A DNA stretch of 64,000 bases from Steinernema hermaphroditum (lineage: Eukaryota > Nematoda > Chromadorea > Rhabditida > Steinernematidae): positions 10,936,769-11,000,768 of the forward strand of contig CM059624.1 of NCBI GenBank assembly GCA_030435675.1. The letters are read 5' to 3'. A program made the position numbers and the translations under genes. The notes beneath the pieces were generated by a model. The model saw only the letters and a list, made by a program, of their open reading frames with translations. It had not been told where the DNA came from and did not search any database. The stretch's first letter is position 1. Each line of letters begins with the position of its first letter. Shown in pieces: positions 808-48,048 of this stretch.

Positions 808-1375
808 ATGTGCACAGTGCGATAAATGTTCTATCGTCGTCTGCGCTCTCTCGCGCCGCAGCGCTCAAACGGTCGGCTGCGAAAAGAGTGGCCGGCCAAA
901 GAGCCGGTGGCAGAAAAGTACGAAGCGGGCACGCTGCCTATCGGGCGTCGTTCGTCATAACTTTTCGAGAGGAAAGCACCTCGGGACAAGTTCCATCATA
1001 ACTCTCTGTGGTTTTGGTGGTGACAGAAGAGGCACATTTAAAATCTTCATCAGCGAGAGCAACAAACCAGGAAAGCTCCGCCGAAAAAGGAGTCGAAATG
1101 AAAGCACAAAACGGTGTATCTAAAGTAGTCAAGATCAGGTATCTATCTTCTTCGAACTTTCAAAACACATCTGAAACAGCCCGACGAACTCTATCTCTAG
1201 AAACCCAGAGATTCTCTCGAAGTTCGGCTGAGAGAGATCGCGAAGAATTCGCAACTTGCGCTGCCGTAATCGAAATGCCCCAAATCAAGCCAAGTCTAGA
1301 CAGTCCCACGGAACTACAACGGAGAAAAATATATTTATTGTGCACACAAAACAGATAAGTGTAACACATGTGACC
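808..1375. other. Gap between convergent genes
   Basis: Open frames on both strands here have no coding character. On the minus strand an AATAAA (about 1331-1336) lies some 40 bases past the stop of the next gene and probably serves as its polyadenylation signal. Confidence 0.4.
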
Positions 1376-2069
1376 TCAAATTCTGTGTCCAGGGTCAGTC
1401 CGCGCCATGGCGTGAAAGTCAACGCCGAACATGAGGCCAAGAGCGGTAGCAGGGCTGCTTGGACGAGGAGCGGACCGCCGAGGAGGCGGAGGCGAAGCGC
1501 CTCGTTCGACGTACTCCCTGCTCTCGAGAGGCATTTGTTGTCCCGCTGAACTGTTGCCGATTCCGCAGATTTCCGGCTCAGCTTCTGGACGTTCCTAAAA
1601 CACGAGGCGTAACTGTGCCTTAAGAGGAAGCTTACGTATGGGTTGAAGCCAGCATCGAAATGGCGTCTGTAATGTTGAAGGTAGTCGTGGAAGCGCTGAA
1701 GCAGATTCGTAGAAATAAAGCGAAAGGATGTTAACTCACTGGCTGGAATCGTTTGTTGTATCGTTCCTCGAGGACAGGCCGATGGTCTACAACGTTGATA
1801 AGCGCTGACAGTTGCGTGCCTTTGTTGATCTAAACATACCGGTTTGAACGCAACAGAGATTATTCTTACCATCACAGGCCCAACTTCTTCGCCCGCGTCC
1901 CAAAGCAGTTTGGCACTTTGCTAAATCACATAAACATTATAGCTTCTGCTATCAACCGTATCCTTACAAGCAAGGTGGCAGTAACTTCTTTGTCCTCGTC
2001 AACCGCTTCAATTCTTGCTACCAGAGGAATCCAAATCTGAAGAGGTATCCAGATAGGTGTGTATTTCAT
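1376..2069 (-). CDS. Unrecognised protein with Pro/Ser-rich C-terminus
   Basis: Exons read in one phase-compatible frame on the minus strand: a first exon from ATG 2069, then ..QSAKLLWDAGEEVG.., ..LINVVDHRPVLEERYNKR.., ..RFHDYLQHYRRHFDAGF.. and a last exon rich in Pro and Ser, ending ARTDPGHRI at 1376. Introns are 39-45 bases with good consensus ends, and a minus-strand AATAAA lies just downstream. The fold looks soluble, with no signal peptide or membrane segment, and I do not recognise the family. The start is uncertain: a 3' splice site (CCTCTTCAG) lies inside the predicted first exon, so the exon from ATTTGG could instead be spliced to the gene upstream. The ATG is preceded by an ATAACAG acceptor and lies only 49 bases from the stop of the next minus-strand gene, which would suit an operon. 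Confidence 0.45.
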
Positions 2070-2118
2070 GTTGAACTGTTATCTACCTTTTCAAGAGGGA
2101 TCACACTTATCTCCGTGT

Positions 2119-2957
2119 TCACAGATGCATCTCGCTTAAGCGCACTCTGTAAATGACTGCAATGAGTACCAGCAGCCACAAGAGAACAACCCGAAGAAGA
2201 GCATTCATTTCGTTCGCTATCATCGCATCCAATTCCGTACGCTGGAACGTTTTTCTGTTGACCTAAAAATGAACCATTACAACAAGTCATCGAGACGTAG
2301 TCTTCTTACTGTTTTCCACGCGTCGGATGCTTCATTCCACTTAAACTTTCTTCCAGGCACCTAAATTTCAGAGGAATAGTAAAATTGTGAGACGAAGAAT
2401 ACCGATTTGATGTTGTATTTGTCCAATTCTGTGCCGAGAGTGGTGACGGGGTTAGTAATTGCGCCCTAAATGAGCAAATAGGTACAATATCCGATAAACT
2501 CGCACACAGACCTTTGCGAGTTCATAAGTGATTTCGGATCCACCGCTGAAGTCCGATGGTTTCACCTAAAAGGGGAAAGCAATACACCGGTGGTAAGTGT
2601 GATGCTTACATAACGAGGTTCATCGCCTCTACGTTCGTCACCTGCAGAGACGCTTTCATCATGAGCAGGCTCAACGCCCCAGCCCTCCGACTCGAGATCG
2701 CTCGGTGCAGAACGGTAATTATCTTCGATCTTAACAGACCACAATATTTCGAACAAAGATACGACTTACGCTTCCACTCCTGATGCTGACGTAACGAGTC
2801 TCCGCAGGCTGACCGTAACTGGCGGGAATGAACTAAATGACCATATTAGGTCATCCAAGCAGTGACTCCTTACTTCTTCGTAGGTGATATCCCCAAGAGG
2901 AGTAGCCGTAGGAGGCGGGAGCATTTCATGCGGAAGAAATCCAGATTCGTCACTCAT
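2119..2957 (-). CDS. Probable tail-anchored membrane protein
   Basis: Exons join in one frame from ATG 2957 (MSDESGFLPHEML..) through acidic, Ser-rich exons (..SDLESEGWGVEPAHDES.., ..GSEITYELAKGAITNP..) to a last exon ending in one strongly hydrophobic segment (RVVLLWLLVLIAVIY) and a short basic tail RVRLSEMHL. There is no signal peptide, so a C-terminal anchor facing the cytosol is likely, at about 190 residues. I do not recognise the family. Introns are about 41-45 bases. An alternative reading removes the membrane segment as a 44-base intron (donor GTTGTT, poor) and joins the protein in frame to the gene at 1376-2069. The membrane-anchored reading uses no weak splice site. Confidence 0.45.
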
Positions 2958-3390
2958 GCTGTCAGAGAACAATCAATAAGCATGAACAAGGTTGTACACG
3001 ACGTCTAGCGAAGCAGCAGGTGCATCAAGCAGTCAAGAATTCGCTGCAAGACGCAGCACAGCCATACAAATTTAGTAGACTAATTCCAAGCTCGTTTTGC
3101 GTTTGTCTACAGCTATTATATTTTAGACGTTTTATGAGTCTGTGTCTGCACACACAAGACGTCTACTTCTGTTGTGGATTGGCCGTTCCACTTTTGAAGC
3201 CCGTATTGTTTTGTGTGGTGACCGTTGGCGGGCAATTTTTGACGAAGATAAAGCGACAATCAAACATTGCCGCTTTCCGTGATGCTTTCTTCGTTTTCCG
3301 TTTTCTTTGTTAGTTTGCTCAAATGTTTCATCGATTATTTAAGGATGTACACTATTATATCCTGAAACTTCATTCATTTCAGGCTGCACA
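2958..3390. other. Divergent intergenic region
   Basis: This stretch lies between a minus-strand start and a plus-strand start and probably holds both promoters. An open frame at 3020-3313 has low-complexity hydrophobic composition and no splice or start context. A TTTCAG at about 3377-3382 is the likely trans-splice acceptor of the next gene. Confidence 0.35.
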
Positions 3391-3847
3391 ATGGCCGAGG
3401 TACTGCAAAAACGAACGGATCCACGCACCATCATCAAGGAGAAGAACGCCATCAAGGCACAGAGGGCGCGCGAGAAGTGAGTGATGTTTTGTTGCCATGT
3501 GATTGGTGAATTCCGTTCGCAGATATCACAGCATGTCGGAGGAAAAGCGGAAGACATACAACAAGAAGCGCAACATCTACTGGATTCGACAGAAAGAGCG
3601 GGAAGCCAGAATATTACAGAAGAAACTGTCAGAAGCCAGTGCTCAGGATTTGGAGCATTTGGAGAAGATTATCGAAGAAAGGGAGAGAAGAGCTGAAGCC
3701 CAGCGAAGGCGCTACTACACGAAGTCGTTCGAAGAACGACGCGCCATGAATCACAAACTTTATCTGAAGCGGAAGAAACAGCAATACGGCTCTTCAACTT
3801 CTGGTGCGCTTGCTGGCGCATATGTACGACTGGGCAATGCTACGTGA
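3391..3847 (+). CDS. Small basic coiled-coil protein with repeated EEKR-type motif
   Basis: ATG 3391 follows TTTCAG directly (trans-splice site). There are two exons, 3391-3476 and 3523-3847, and the 46-base intron keeps phase. The protein has about 136 residues, very rich in Lys, Arg and Glu. The element YHSMSEEKRKTYNKKRN recurs further on as YYTKSFEERRAMNHKLY, about 65 residues later, with a predicted coiled coil between. Such repeated Tyr/Ser/Glu-Glu-Arg motifs occur in poorly characterised nematode nuclear or nucleic-acid-binding proteins; this is recollection, not a search result. No catalytic or membrane features are visible. A nuclear location is inferred from the charge. Confidence 0.7.
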
Positions 3848-4093
3848 GCTGCTGTTTAGGAAGGGATCTTTATCTAGTATATCATTATCACCATATATGT
3901 TTTCTGTAAATATTATTTCGGTATATATATGTTTTTGTAGTGCGGATTTGTAGTCTTTTTTGGTTCTTTTCGCCATTCTCTGTATTCATCCGATGTCTCA
4001 TAGACCTTTCTTGGCAGCAGGCTGTCTCGCGAGCACTTTTGCTCCATTTCACCCATGCTACCTTGTTAGAATTGGTCTGTTGACCGAGAAGCG

Positions 4094-5561
4094 ATGAGGG
4101 ACGTTTCGAAAGTGTTTCCACTCATCCTCTCTCTAGTGACGTTCGGATCTTCAACATCTGTTTCTGATGGTACAGTCAATGATTACTAAGTAACCACACT
4201 ATTGTATTTCAGAAACGTGTTCATTACGACAACTGCAGAATATCTATCCGTTCCGGAAAACCATTATCTACGCGATCACTCCCGACTGCCATCTACATGT
4301 GTTCAGAAGCTGGAATCACAGTTTGAACCTGAATTCTATTTCGTACACACCGATTAGGAAGTCGTTCTGCGCATTTGACAAGAATTCAAGGCTGATCCAC
4401 TTTGTTCACCGTCAACATCAGATGCCGGCACTTCTTATCATAATTATTCGTTTGAGCACCAACGAATATCCCCTCTTGGAGTACGCTTCCGTTTGTTTTC
4501 GTTGATGTGGGATCATTTTTTAGATTCAATCTGGAGGAATTATTGGGTGATCTGCGGGAAACCACCGTGCCTCTGATCGAACACATACATAAAAGCACTA
4601 CAAAGGTGATTGAAGCGAAAGAGCCGATTGCTTCTTGCACATTTGTGAGCACTGAATTGTTTTGCTTTTGGGTTGACGCCGAGAAGAGGCGAGTTTTCCA
4701 GCAGAAATTCGAATTCGAAGAGGAGCTTCTTCGCTATAGGCAAGCTTTTCTGTATCTTCTTCAACTAACATCTGGAATTGATTTAGACCAAGGAAAGATG
4801 CTGTTCCGTTCGACAAGGCCGGGATCCGTTATTTGAGCCAAAAAGTCATAGCGAGTGTGTGGGACCAGGAACAGCTGGAATCCGCATCTGTATTTCTTTA
4901 TGATCCAATCACGAAAGGATGGCTGTACCGCGTGTCGAATACATCTTTCCCGGCAGGCCGTCAGAGACGAAAGAACATGCATCACATTCACACAGTAGAT
5001 GATGGTAACACAGGCATGTCTTATTCGTTGGTAATTCCAGACTCAAGGAAAGCTCATGAATCTTGCCTCGATGGGCAACTCAGTTTTGATGGCTACAGAA
5101 TGTGATGCAGCGGGAGGCTGTCGATACATCGTCAATTTCCTTCAGATCGTATGTTTATAAAGTGACAGATCTACAAGTATGATTTACTGCTTTAGATGGC
5201 GTTTTCTCCGCATGCGTGTGTGTTTAAATCGGAAACTCTGATGGCCGTTGGACTCCTGACGGATGTGCGAAGCGAAGATCCACAAGACACAGAAGGAAAA
5301 GATGTATCTCCTGTCATCCTGACGCCTGAACAGGTCGAACATAGAAGACCCGTATCACAAGGATACGAGCCTATAATCGCTCTCGCTACGGTAACCTTAG
5401 TCTCAGTGGTCATATATTTGCTAGCAGCATTCACTCGCGAATCTGCATCAAGCAGAGGACATTTGTGCTGCGAAGGCAAGCTAAACCAATTTTGGACACG
5501 GTGTGTTGGCCGATCACCTTTGCAGTCAAATCCAATTAATAAATATGGGAGTGATGCGTAA
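4094..5561 (+). CDS. Signal-peptide type I membrane protein, unknown family
   Basis: ATG 4094 starts a signal peptide (VFPLILSLVTFGSS). Following exons are phase-compatible: ..ETCSLRQLQNIYPF.. with Cys residues; ..FNLEELLGDLRET..; ..YDPITKGWLYRV..; then, through an intron with donor GTAGATGA, ..LMATECDAAGGCRYIV..; then ..AFSPHACVFKSET... One membrane segment (IIALATVTLVSVVIYLLAAF) precedes a Ser- and Cys-containing cytosolic tail ending KYGSDA at 5561. The mapping between 4600 and 4790 is the least sure part. I do not recognise the ectodomain; paired Cys and Asn-X-Ser sites suggest a disulphide-bonded surface protein of about 400 residues. A 13-bp hairpin sits 28 bases past the stop. Confidence 0.6.
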
Positions 5562-40961: not shown

Positions 40962-43085
40962 ATGGATTCGGGCGCATTATCTAGTCTTTGTGAGATGGAG
41001 ACTCGTGTGTGGTTGTTGCTCGCCGGTGCTTTGCTCTTCTACGAAACGTCAGCTCAAACAATCGAGATTAATACCATGGACTACGACCATAAGTTGAATA
41101 AGAAGATCAGCGTAACTGAGAGATGTCTGTTTAAATTCAGTTCTCGTGATCTTATTCTTACGTTTTAGTCGACCGATGCCCGCAATACAACTTCAGGAAC
41201 AATTTCTACCACGCCTTGACCTGTGCTGGGTTTGTACGTGCGCACATGGACGATTTGGAGAGAAAGCGCACCAAAAAGAGATTGGATTGGAACGCAGATA
41301 TCGATGAGAAATTAGCAGAGAACGCAGATAAACCGTGTTTTGATAATGCTCAGTTCAAAGTATTCTACTATGACGAAAAGCGGTTGATCTTCTTGCGCTT
41401 TGGCGAGCACGGTTCGCATGTGAGTTATTGGATTACGGAGAATTTGCAGGATGAGTACAAAAATGAGTAAGTCATAAGCCGTTTGCTAGTGCTGACCGTC
41501 TTCATCTTGCAGGACTGTTTTCGTACAGTTTCCACACCCTTTGAGTGACAAATGGAAATTTATTGCATATGCGAATTTAGGGCACTCTCCTCTTTCGAAT
41601 CACGTCTGTGACCCTGAATTGGCAGTTTACTATCCAGCCACGAAGCAGTTCCAGTTTTCTGATCAAGGTAGCTATTTTGACCTCGAAACAAAAAGGCATA
41701 CGCTTGTACACTTATGTACACCACCGATCCCCTATGTGAGTGAGATTTTCAAATGATTAAAGCAACGCATTTTCAGTTCTCAATTCGCCAAGTCGATCCG
41801 ATGATGTCTAACCCGCGTGTAAGTACTGCTAAGATTATGGATGTGATATTCCTAAATATTATGATTTCAGTCTGTCCTTCTGATTGGGGCAAACCTCTAC
41901 CCTTACCGACATATGCAGTACTACAATCAAATATACGATCAGCATAGCATTGTGAGCTTCAACTAGTATGTTTTCGTACAATCACAGCTGTTTCAAAATC
42001 TAGCTCATTTAGCCCGTTACCCGGTTATGTGAAATCGAAATATTACGCTGTGGTCGTTTTCAAGAATGACGAGTAAGTTCGAATAAATAATAAACTGATG
42101 ATCCTTTTTATGTTTCAGGAAGGAACGTAAGCTTTTTGAACAGAAGCTAGCTGAGCGGTTCAATATGCTCGAGCCGTGTTACATTCGAGTTATCAGACCA
42201 GACTTGCACGAATCACACGAAATGTTGATGACGCCTTACTCTGTCAGTCACAAATTGTAAGTTACATGCTTCCACCCTCATGACATAATATGTTTAAGCG
42301 TAATTCCTGATGTGAAGGCACCTCGTCTTATAGAAGCCACGACGACGACAACCACGACGACGACGACAACAACAACGACGACGCCCACTACTACATCCAC
42401 GACGACGACTACAACCACGTCGACGCCTACAACCACGACGACGACTACAACCACGACGACGCCTACAACCACGACGACGACTACAACCACGACGACGCCT
42501 ACAACCACGACGACGACTACAACCACGACGACGCCTACAACCACGACGCCGCGAACTACACAAGCACCCAAGACTAGGAAAACTTCGCCCCTTACGGCGA
42601 CCACAATCACGATGACAACGCCAACAACCACGACGACGACAACTACCACGACGACGACAACTACCACGACGTCGACAACTACCACGACGACAACGCCAAC
42701 AACCACGACGACGACAACTACCACGACGACAACGCCAACAACCACGACGACGACAAGTACCACGACGTCGACAACTACTACCACTCCGGTGCCAACAACA
42801 GTAGGGGTGATCAAGCTCGCACTGCCTCGAAGAAACCACTCTCGTGGATATAACGACGCCCCCATTTGGAATTACATTACGGATGTCCCAGATAAAGTTC
42901 AACAAAAGTCGAGGACTATCGTTCTCTCCATGGATTATTATGATGATCAAGACGCTGTCGATATAGCCGTGAAAAATAGAATGAAAAAACTCCAACCAGT
43001 GGAGGAGAAGTTCACTTCATCTACGAATCTGAACGCTGTGTCCTTCGTGTCACTTATTATTGTCGGATTGGTCTTTTACGTGTAA
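40962..43085 (+). CDS. Secreted mucin-like surface protein, paralogue A
   Basis: Eight exons: 40962-41122, 41169-41466, 41513-41735, 41777-41818, 41871-41965, 42013-42072, 42119-42256 and 42299-43085, all in phase. Signal peptide METRVWLLLAGALLFYETSAQ; an ectodomain of about 290 residues with Cys (DRCPQYNF, HALTCAGF, DKPCFDNAQF, SNHVCDPE, LEPCYIRV); then about 150 residues of nearly pure Thr with Pro and Ser, the substrate type for O-glycosylation; then a globular piece and a hydrophobic end (SFVSLIIVGLVFYV), which suits a GPI-anchor signal or a terminal membrane segment. An in-frame ATG 33 bases upstream of the signal-peptide Met is conserved in paralogue B. TATAAAT lies just before the start. 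Family unknown. Tandem paralogue at 44822. Confidence 0.75.
42336..42795 (+). repeat. Thr-codon minisatellite within paralogue A
   Basis: ACG/ACA/ACC repeats with CACGACGACGACTACAAC-like units of 30-40 bases coding poly-Thr/Pro. Near-perfect unit copies suggest recent slippage. Paralogue B has a much shorter version (about 45907-46040). Confidence 0.9.
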
Positions 43086-43181
43086 TTGTGTATCTAACAT
43101 CTTTATTAAATTTAATTTTTTCTTTTCAAAGATGTCTAGTGGGGAATCCATCTGGGGATGCTATCAGAGCCATTGGTTGTC

Positions 43182-44158
43182 GGCTCTATTAGCGAATAGC
43201 GGCCAAAAGTATTTTTGGACGGCCAAAAGTATCTTTGGACGGCCAAAAGTCGGAATAGCGGCCAAAACTATTTTCCAACGGCCAAAAGTCGGAATAGCGG
43301 CCAAAACTATTTTCCAACGGCCAAAAGTTTTTTATCAACAAAATTTATCACAAACAGAAAAGTAACTGTTCAATAGTCATCCTCTTCGGACTCCTCTTCG
43401 GGCTCCTCTTCGGGTTCCTCGTCAGGCTCTTCGTCGAGCTCTTCGTCGAGCTCGTCAGAGCTTTCTTCGGAGCCCTCTTCGGAGCTGGGCTTCTTTCTCT
43501 GGCGTCTCCGGGGCGTTGCGGGCGGTGGGGCGTTGACGTGGACGACCACGGGGATGGAGAGGTTTTGGTTCAGGTGGTTGTTTCCACCCGTGATGCGCCC
43601 TCCGTGGACGCCACCATGGTGCATGCCGCCATGACGCATGCCTCCGTGTCGGTTCCCACCATGGCGCATGCCGCCATGGCGAGTGCCCCCGTGGCGGTAC
43701 GAACCGCCACTGATGTCTGCGGCGACATCAGTGGCGGTGTCGGCCTGCACTTTGGAGTCGACGGTGACGTCGACGCCCGCCAGACTAGAATTATAAAGCG
43801 AGGCTATTTAGTGGCGGTGAGGCATTGAGCACCTTCTTGGAATCCGGAGGACGACTTCGCCCCCCTCTTCGTCGATCTCGACGACGGGGAAAGGGGATAC
43901 CACGACGATCAGGAGGAGCAAGGAACACACAAGATACATGATGAGTCTAAAAACTTTTGGCTTTAAAAATATACTTTTGGCCGCTATTTCGACTTTTGGC
44001 CGTTGGAAAATAGTTTTGGCCGCTATTCCGACTTTTGGCCGTCGAAAAATCGTTTTGGCCGCTATTCCGACTTTTGGCCGTTGGAAAATAGTTTTGGCCG
44101 TCCAAAGATACTTTTGGCCGTCCAAAAATACTTTTGGCCGCTATTCGCTAATAGAGCC
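43182..44158. mobile_element. Element 1: cargo-bearing long-TIR DNA element with 8-bp target duplication
   Basis: The ends are exact inverted repeats starting GGCTCTATTAGCGAATAGCG (43182) and ending with its complement (44158). They are flanked by the direct repeat TGGTTGTC at 43174-43181 and 44159-44166. Each TIR (about 150-200 bp) consists of subrepeats built on CGGCCAAAAGT with TATTTTTGGA or CGGAATAGCGGCCAAAACTA linkers. Between the TIRs is a complete two-exon gene on the minus strand and no transposase. An 8-bp duplication suits hAT-like or Merlin-like elements; the TIR sequence alone does not decide. The paralogous 3' flank of gene B (about 47880-47930) lacks the insertion. Confidence 0.85.
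43370..43939 (-). CDS. Secreted His-Gly-Gly repeat protein carried by element 1
   Basis: ATG 43939 opens a signal peptide (MYLVCSLLLLIVVVSPFPVV) and an acidic stretch. Exon 1 (43939-43833) splices in phase to exon 2 (43784-43370). Exon 2 encodes tandem RHGG pentapeptides (RHGGT, RHGGM, RHGGN, HHGGV), then a Pro/Val-rich linker, a basic patch (RRRQRKKP) and a C-terminal run of about 45 residues that is nearly all Glu/Asp. It has 173 residues and intact ends. His-rich repeats suggest metal binding or antimicrobial action, and the acidic tail may neutralise a basic part; both are inferences. The start lies 6 bases inside the right TIR boundary and the stop about 30 bases from the left TIR, so promoter and 3' signals must lie in the TIRs. 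Confidence 0.65.
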
Positions 44159-44235
44159 TGGTTGTCGCCATATCGGGGTAAACCACAGAATCTTTGCGAA
44201 CGTCCAGAAGACTAGAAGGTGAATCAGCAAAAAAA

Positions 44236-44577
44236 TTAGGGTACACTGTCATAAACGTACAAGCAGCTAGCATTAAAGCTCGTGAGGCACAGGTCAACTA
44301 CGCTTGATTTGCTGAATGAATTATAATGGTGCTTCTTCGTATAATACATAAATGCCTGGACTGCAACCTGCGTCGCGCGTCGTGGGCAGAGGGCCTCCTC
44401 GAGAAGCGCTTCCTCCTTGGGGACCAGGTCGCTCATCATCGTATTCTGAGAGTCGCTTTTCTGCACATCGAACACTTTGAAGTCCGATGAGGTCAACTGC
44501 ACGGGCCATCGTTGGTTATTGTTGGAGGCATTGAGCTTTCGATGATGGCACGACGCACGACGCAGCGAGCGACGCAC
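44236..44577 (-). other. Uncertain open frame between the paralogues
   Basis: A 113-codon frame including MMSDLVPKEEALLEEALCP and YYTKKHHYNSFSKSS. It has no signal peptide, recognised family or splice support. The first part overlaps short GACGCACGACGCA repeats. It may be a gene remnant. Confidence 0.2.
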
Positions 44578-44821: not shown

Positions 44822-46161
44822 ATGAATGCGAGCGCATTGTCCAGTCTTTGTCAAATGGAGACTCGTCTGCTCGGTGCGATGTGGTTGTTGCTCGCCGGTG
44901 TTTTTCTCTTCTACGGAACGTCGGCTCAAACAATCAAGATTGTTAACATGCAGTACGACGAATACTTGCAGAGGTATTTCGGTCGAAAAGAGTATTGTCA
45001 GTTTAAATTCAGTTCTCGTGATCTTATTCTTACGTTTTAGTCGACAGATGCCCGCAATACAACTTCAGGAACAATTTCTACCACGCCTTGACCTGTGCTG
45101 GGTTTGTACGTGCGCACATGGACGATTTGGAGAGAAAGCGCACCAAAAAGAGATTGGATTGGAACGCAGATATCGATGAGAAATTAGCAGAGAACGCAGA
45201 GTTTACTATCCAGCCACGAAGCAGTTCCAGTTTTCTGGTCAAGGTAGCTACTTTAATCTCGAAACAAAAAAGCATACGCTTGTACACTTATGTACACCAC
45301 CGGGCCCCGAAGTGAGTGACATTTTGCAAATGATTAAATAATGAATGATTTTTAGCACCCATTTCGCCAAGTGGATCCGATGATGTCTAAACCGCGTGTA
45401 AGTATTCCTAAGATTACGGATGTGATATTCCTAAAATGATGATTTCAGCCTGTTCTACTGAAAGAGTCACTGCACTTCCCTTACCGACATATGAAGTACT
45501 ACAATCAAATATATAATCAGCATAGCATTTTCAGCTTCAATGAGTATGTTTCCGTGAAATCACAGATATTCCAACATCTAACTCATTTAGCATGATACGC
45601 TCTTACACGAGATCGAAATATTACGCTGTGATCGTTTACAAGAATGACGAGTAAGTTCCAATGAGTAATGAACTGATGAGTTTTTTATCTTGCAGGAAGG
45701 AACGTAAGCTTTTCGACCAAAAGAAAGCTCGTCACTTCGCTATTCTCGAGCCGTGTTACATTCGAGTTATCAGACCAGACTTACACGAATCACACGAAAT
45801 GTTGATGACGCCTTACTCTGTCAGTCACAAATTGTAAGTTACATGCTTCCAGCCTCATGACATAATATGTTTAAGCGTAATTCCTGATGTGAAGGCACCT
45901 CGTCTTATCACGACGACGACAACCACCACGACAACGCCGCGGACTACGCCAGCACCCAAGGCTAGGAAAACTTCGCCCCTTACGACGCCAGCAATCACGA
46001 CGTCGACAACAACCACGACGACAGCAACCACCACTCCGGTGACAGAAACAATAGGGGTGATGCAGCTCGTACTGCCCCAAAGAAACCACTCTCGTGAATA
46101 TAATCTGAGCGCTGTTTCCTTCGTGTCACTTATTATTGCCGGATTGGTCTTCTATGTGTAA
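44822..46161 (+). pseudogene. Paralogue B of the mucin-like surface protein, with internal deletion
   Basis: The start, signal peptide (METRLLGAMWLLLAGVFLFY), second exon (45041 onward; about 140 bases almost identical to paralogue A), short middle exons and C-terminal end (SFVSLIIAGLVFYV) are all recognisable, with the same intron positions. Relative to A, a segment of about 310 bases is missing at 45200, including an intron, and the join (GCAGAG|TTTACT) puts what follows out of frame, giving a stop at 45315. The Thr-rich stretch is shortened to about 40 residues. Promoter and 3' flanks are also duplicated. It is either a pseudogene or encodes a truncated secreted protein; downstream exons remain open, so the break is recent. 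Confidence 0.65.
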
Positions 46162-46473
46162 TTGTGCATCTAAAAGCTACAGTGGCGGCCGTATAAATAG
46201 CCGCACCCCCTACATAAAGTTTCTATTGCCGATTTACCCTGGATTTTAAAATGTGGGCACTAAACCAAGGGCACTATCAGATGTAGAATTTATCAAGTAG
46301 CAAAATGGTGTTACTTATTTTCCGTACAGGACCCACCATGCAGATAGGGAATGTAATACATTCGGCCGGCTCATATTCGGCGCGGCATTATAAATAGCCG
46401 CACCCGGAGTTCCACCATTTTCTGAGTGTTTTTTGATGAGTTTTTTGCGTCGTATCGTTTTATTCTTTATTCT

Positions 46474-47600: not shown

Positions 47601-48048
47601 TCAGAAATTGGTGGAACTCCGGGTGCGGCTATTTATAATGCCGCGCCGAATATGAGCCGGCCGAATGTATTACATTCCCTGTCTGCATGGTGGGTCCTGC
47701 ACGGAAAATAAGTAACACCATTTTGCTGCTTGATAAATTCCACATCTGATAGTGTCCTTGGTTTAGTGCCCACATTTTAGAATCCAGGGTAAATCGGCAA
47801 TAGAAACTTTATGTAGGGGGTGCGGCTATTTATACGGCCGCCACTGTATATTAAATTTAGTTTTTCTCTTCTCAAAGATACCTTGTGGGGAATCCATCTG
47901 GGAATGCTATCAGAGCCATTGGTTCCGGGGCAGGGTTGTGCGAGATTCAGAGTCGAGACTCTCAAAATCTTCAGCAGTATAGCATTAGGATCTCTCTGCA
48001 AGCAGTCTCCCGAATTTTTGAACTGACCAACCGCCACATCAATTCAAC

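Follow-up and report, generated by a model that had tools for sequence, protein, structure and literature searches.

An apparent deletion derivative of a Merlin transposon in Steinernema hermaphroditum retains the second gene of its family, which probably encodes a secretory-routed accessory protein

The window analysed here is a stretch of 64,000 nucleotides of the S. hermaphroditum assembly (C4:10936769-11000768; the genome searched comprises 90.6 Mb), and positions given below refer to the window unless another locus is named. An element of 977 bp occupies positions 43182-44158, between direct copies of an 8-bp target, and its interior is taken up by a two-exon gene that reads on the minus strand. 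The features of the insertion, with its terminal inverted repeats (TIRs), are the following:

43174..43181, unstranded: left target site duplication, TGGTTGTC, a sequence that the paralogous empty site has just once
43182..43340, plus strand: left TIR, beginning GGCTCTATTAGCG, with subrepeats of ~20 bp and ~39 bp
43370..43784, minus strand: exon 2, with the HGG-repeat region, the NNHLNQNLSIPVVVHV block, the basic patch, the acidic tail and the stop codon
43785..43832, minus strand: intron of 48 nt, GT..AG (GTGCTC...TTCTAG), 47-50 nt long in six other two-exon copies
43833..43939, minus strand: exon 1, with the start codon and a signal-peptide-like segment, MYLVCSLLLLIVVVSPFPVV, recognised by hydrophobicity alone
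43940..43949, minus strand: remnant of the gene leader, TAGACTCATC, ten bases that match the related copy L010 before the ATG, followed by the deletion junction to the TIR
43950..44158, minus strand: right TIR
44159..44166, unstranded: right target site duplication, TGGTTGTC

The outer 67 nt of the two TIRs (43182-43248 and 44092-44158) are perfectly complementary and the arm pair 43200-43328 / 43992-44120 shows a complementarity of 93%. The inverted-repeat ends and the perfect 8-bp target duplication reported in a preliminary description of this DNA are confirmed. A paralogous stretch on the minus strand, 0.5 Mb from the window copy (C4:11484225-11484613), is a candidate for the empty site. 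It matches the left flank at 87% and the right flank at 92%; the left-flank match reaches base 341 of 342, the right-flank match begins at base 1 and, by their coordinates, the two adjoining matches overlap only over the target. The stretch thus appears to represent the flanks joined without the element, as expected of an empty site. Repeats are also found around the insertion. A dispersed repeat of ~153 bp lies just to the right of the element (44394-44546) and accounts for 20 of the 21 other right-flank matches elsewhere. On the left (42600-43085), a Thr-rich repeat gene ends ~90 bp before the insertion; parts of this flank recur inside the window at 46102-46173 and 47849-47924, and C4:11484271 and C4:11717586 hold further matches to it.

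The gene has an intact two-exon frame for a protein of 173 aa, which comprises an N-terminal hydrophobic segment, an RHGG-repeat stretch (34 residues, 8 of them H and 14 of them G), the conserved NNHLNQNLSIPVVVHV block, an RRRQRKK basic patch and an acidic tail in which 25 of 39 residues are D or E. Mean Kyte-Doolittle hydrophobicity of the N-terminus over 12 residues is 3.5 in the window copy and 2.4 in the copy L044, and both N-termini are hydrophobic although their sequences differ. The exon junction is identical in the NCBI proteins QR680_010195 and QR680_006804, which derive from other copies. No transposase match was found inside the window element, which is thus not autonomous; a transposase-free element whose content is a two-exon gene with a signal-peptide-like start is what had been described for this locus. 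With its intact frame, the window copy also departs from the definition of a MITE as an element with no coding capacity.

The protein matches no Pfam family above the cut-off, and searches of 5.8 billion proteins returned only S. hermaphroditum matches and a single metagenome protein with HGG repeats (in one of the searches the best 7988 candidates were scored). This metagenome protein (P0052, E 5.9e-4) was discarded, having by eye the HGG repeats alone in common with the query, and four loci on viral contigs were likewise discarded, for which only the RHGG repeat stretch matched and which gave zero matches under low-complexity filtering. Genes of transposons are often masked before annotation, and S. 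hermaphroditum was the only nematode whose genome was searched; therefore, the lack of a convincing homologue among the proteins of other species should be taken as weak evidence.

The TIR of the window copy has at least 56 matches in the genome, and longer copies encode a transposase (PF12762); a search for other copies, and for a full one encoding an 8-bp-duplicating transposase, had been suggested in the preliminary description. Among the loci fetched, 33 elements of 397-2318 bp could be bounded by the terminus GGCTCTATTA or a sequence one base off, and 8-bp duplications flank all of them (28 perfect, five with one mismatch). The ends of 31 of these elements were paired via the terminal motif alone, the duplication not being a criterion, while a scan in which a duplication was demanded supplied L063 and L065; in seven further fetched loci (L015, L016, L028, L048, L050, L051 and L064) at most one end could be recognised. 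The TIRs share their first ten bases and diverge thereafter into subfamilies, typified by GCGAATAGCGGCC (the window type), GCGAACAGTGGCC, G(A/G)GAGAAGTGACC and CCGAACAGTTGCCGG (L044).

According to passages of PMC8101967, Merlin transposons, described by Feschotte 2004 as cited there, are relatives of IS1016 (IS1595 family) and are defined by TIRs with a terminal GG and target duplications of 8 or 9 bp; passages of PMC5120318 already list Merlin among the DNA transposons of S. carpocapsae. All the 33 bounded elements start with GGCTC and so carry the terminal 5'-GG-3' of Merlin, with a duplication that is 8 bp throughout. There are 36 matches to DDE_Tnp_IS1595 (PF12762) in the genome, 34 of them above the cut-off, and the open reading frame of L010 reaches 52.8 bits (cut-off 27). 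CBG21232 of C. briggsae (50% identity over 40% of the query) is one of 48 database relatives, and the motifs EIDES, SDGW and IEATWG, picked out by eye, may contain the catalytic DDE residues. Thus, on the GG-ending TIRs, the 8-bp duplications and the DDE_Tnp_IS1595 transposase of the long copies, the family can be assigned to the Merlin superfamily. A MITE or solo inverted repeat was rejected, since transposase-bearing long copies exist. The hAT and P elements also make 8-bp duplications, and were set aside on the basis of the PF12762 matches in the long copies of the family.

Some of the loci inspected hold further transposon sequences. In L029, the Merlin copy (2400-4676) contains a nested insertion with a frame that by eye resembles a Tc1/mariner transposase. 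L034 and L035 (1215-2250 in each) carry 1036-bp elements of another Merlin-like family, which start with GGCACTTATTTACTTTCC and have perfect 8-bp duplications and one PF12762 piece. L039 (G000:C2:15247243-15250641) encodes an open Merlin-type transposase of 370 aa (1372-2398, minus strand) from another lineage, with 64% in the DDE part and no recognisable TIRs; neighbouring frames resemble, by eye, a PDZ-guanylate-kinase scaffold gene, and this transposase is possibly domesticated.

The distribution of the two-exon gene was examined in relation to that of the transposase. Its DNA gave 52 matches, and after removal of ten short antisense rows within listed loci the remaining 42 were merged into 40 loci. 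Elements with both ends and a duplication enclose 23 of the 40; three were fetched yet unbounded (L048, L050 and L051), and the other 14, outside the fetched set, include four beside a PF12762 match and ten without one. Conversely, the gene lies within 5 kb at 13 of the 36 PF12762 loci and has no match at that distance from the other 23; those inspected among the 23 include truncated copies and other lineages (such as L034/L035 and L039). In all 13 loci that hold both genes, the two stand back-to-back, with their starts facing and their ends outward; these loci share common descent and hence are not independent events, and some of them keep the gene end only. The gene recurs inside elements with diverged TIRs, and the order is identical in L051, whose TIR subfamily is unlike that of the window copy. 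Because this order holds in 13 of 13 loci, L051 included, the two-exon gene appears to be the second gene of the Merlin family and not cargo of the window copy alone. A private capture of a host gene by the window copy was rejected on the presence of the same gene in many copies and several TIR subfamilies; the host-type gene packaged by one odd element, as the locus had been viewed earlier, gives way to a second gene of the family.

A captured passenger is the main alternative. A host gene for a secreted protein may have been taken up once by a Merlin element, in the style of Pack-TIR elements, in which case any selection would act for the worm and not for the transposon. The intron and the signal-peptide-like start give the gene a eukaryotic style, and intron-bearing genes for signal-peptide proteins are usual for hosts and unusual for transposons. 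The gene was not found with the intact-looking transposase of the other Merlin lineage, L039, and the ten unread loci lacking a PF12762 match leave room for a host parent. Nevertheless, no clear parental gene was seen in the genome, and the 23 loci in bounded elements together with the four beside a PF12762 match tie the gene to the transposon, so that a captured passenger is considered a real but rather doubtful possibility.

Five relatives that retain the 5' region carry a TATA-like motif upstream of the gene: TATAAAAGCGG in L010, L051, L052 and L053, and TATTAAAGCG in L048. The ATG is immediately preceded by AGACTCATC (with ATT in place of ATG in L048), and a GCGCCGCCGAC-type stretch lies farther upstream of the TATA-like motif. 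In L010, L051 and L052 the TATA-like region sits between both genes and, from its motif, would be the promoter. Upstream of the ATG the window copy has ten bases only in common with L010; absent from it are L010 element positions ~207-249 to 1487, which include the transposase and the TATA-like region (position 1459). By this comparison, the window copy is a deletion derivative, and its TIR now meets the gene leader 10 bp upstream of the ATG.

In the window copy, the TIR end that now precedes the gene is AT-rich (TATATTTTTAAAG) and might act as a substitute promoter. Earlier, the TIRs had been supposed to supply both the promoter and the 3' end of the gene. As the ancestral promoter the TIR is not supported, since relatives that retain the 5' region have the TATA-like motif upstream of the gene; the part concerning the 3' end stands uncontradicted, with the stop codon of the window copy ~30 bases from the inner edge of the TIR. 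The 3' stretch near the stop is common to seven of the eight copies compared. In L044, which belongs to another subfamily, the TIR is likewise fused close to the leader and there is no TATA-like motif; such fusions could conceivably go on being expressed from the TIR.

Substitution patterns were compared among copies of the second gene. Both exons are present in seven copies, four of which (the window copy, L010, L051 and L052) have the start codon and a full open frame. Between the window copy and L051, dS is 0.53 and dN 0.08 (ratio 0.15), and the differences at codon positions 1, 2 and 3 number 18, 10 and 49, respectively. Comparisons of the window copy, L010 or L050 with L051, L052, L054, L055 and L056 gave dN/dS values of 0.11-0.20 at dS >0.5, and those with L048 higher values (0.22-0.43). 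As controls for the window copy and L051, the two other sense frames gave 1.38 and 1.89, and on the antisense strand the ratios were 0.90, 0.32 and 3.62. Over seven pairs, the second of these antisense frames stays low as well (0.24-0.47), which weakens the test, because low-complexity sequence can produce such values. The substitution patterns thus support purifying selection on the second gene between the subfamilies.

If the frame were instead junk, non-functional and kept open by repeats and base composition, broken copies would not surprise, and they do occur (a stop in L053, a frameshift in L044, no ATG in L048 and truncation in several others); the antisense frames are open too, one of them with the low ratios given above, and the TATA-like region is missing from the window copy. 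Such a frame is, however, difficult to reconcile with the low between-subfamily ratios beside the values of the other sense frames, with the distribution of differences over the codon positions and with the conserved GT..AG intron, whose junction is the same in the two NCBI models, and is therefore regarded as very unlikely. Similarly unlikely is an intracellular transposition accessory, comparable to those of other DNA transposons, whose N-terminus is no working signal peptide and which would engage nucleic acid or chromatin in the nucleus through its RGG-like repeats, its basic patch and its acidic tail: the RHGG repeats, the RRRQRKK patch and the 39-residue tail with its 25 acidic residues resemble nucleic-acid-binding and nuclear features, but the N-terminal segment is strongly hydrophobic and keeps this character despite the sequence difference between the window copy and L044.

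The second genes of L010 and L051 differ at 45 of 118 synonymous sites, whereas transposase pieces (the N-terminal parts from L026 and the DDE part from L010) differ from L051 at 96 of 127 (p 4e-9, assuming independent sites). The second gene seems to have split later than the adjoining transposases. Since it is less diverged between the subfamilies than the transposase beside it, it was probably exchanged between Merlin subfamilies by recombination; constraint on the synonymous sites is the alternative.

Taken together, the window copy is probably an internally deleted, non-autonomous member of a two-gene Merlin family, and the second gene would encode an accessory protein that is borne by the element and destined for the secretory pathway. 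The ancestral order would be a TIR, the transposase ending towards that TIR, a short TATA-like intergenic region, the divergent two-exon gene and the other TIR. Comparison with L010 shows that, through a deletion, the TIR on the transposase side came to adjoin the second-gene leader; the transposase and the TATA-like region were lost and the protein was spared. The transposase of other copies presumably moved the window copy in trans through its GG-starting TIRs, thereby generating the 8-bp duplication. The second gene would have been held by purifying selection across the subfamilies, as the substitution patterns indicate, and probably passed among them through recombination, as their divergence suggests, and the accessory protein, most likely routed to the secretory pathway, may have made those elements that carry its gene more successful.

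A more far-reaching proposal, and an improbable one at present, is that of a cut-and-paste transposon that encodes its own secreted protein, which is selected, traded between lineages as a promoter-gene cassette and active through the extracellular space. If true, the RHGG protein, with its RGG-like repeats, could attach to nucleic acid or metal in the extracellular space and aid the passage of the element between cells or hosts; alternatively, the secreted protein could bring the worm a benefit in return for the element it carries.

The family shares with the Merlin superfamily the GG-ending TIRs, the 8-bp duplications and DDE_Tnp_IS1595 in the long copies, and differs from it in a second, divergent and spliced gene with a signal-peptide-like start; Merlin has been described as a transposase between TIRs. 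Passages of PMC8101967 mention an extra reading frame in one Symbiodinium Merlin family, a 1-kb antisense frame overlapping the transposase that its authors deemed due to chance. In the portions seen of the open-licence PMC literature, no Merlin with a conserved second gene was found; the superfamily is known, and the conserved second gene is the new content. A DNA transposon of any kind would be unusual in carrying a second gene that is conserved among subfamilies, seems to have passed from one to another and appears directed to the secretory pathway.

Like the present family, PIF/Harbinger and other DNA transposons with accessory genes hold a transposase and a second gene within the same TIRs. 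Accessory proteins of the PIF/Harbinger type are DNA-binding, for example Myb-like, whereas the second protein here looks secreted and has no Pfam family above the cut-off. The window copy resembles Pack-TIR and Pack-MULE elements as a non-autonomous TIR element with a gene and without a transposase. Those elements carry varied pieces of host genes, whereas one common gene is found here, beside the transposase in longer members and with no host parent seen. With MITEs and internally deleted elements the window copy shares the status of a deletion derivative, presumably moved in trans, but its protein-coding gene is intact. Because S. hermaphroditum serves as a laboratory nematode, the reason for which a selfish element would encode a secreted protein could be put to a direct test in this species.

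Pieces of the second gene are also used by two annotated proteins (P0050 and P0051) at the L044 locus (G000:C2:12453012-12453541). The model QR680_010195 contains the signal segment and the start of exon 2, and in QR680_010196 exon 1 is joined to a protein with Pfam PF10318, a chemoreceptor family; exonisation or an annotation error could account for these models.
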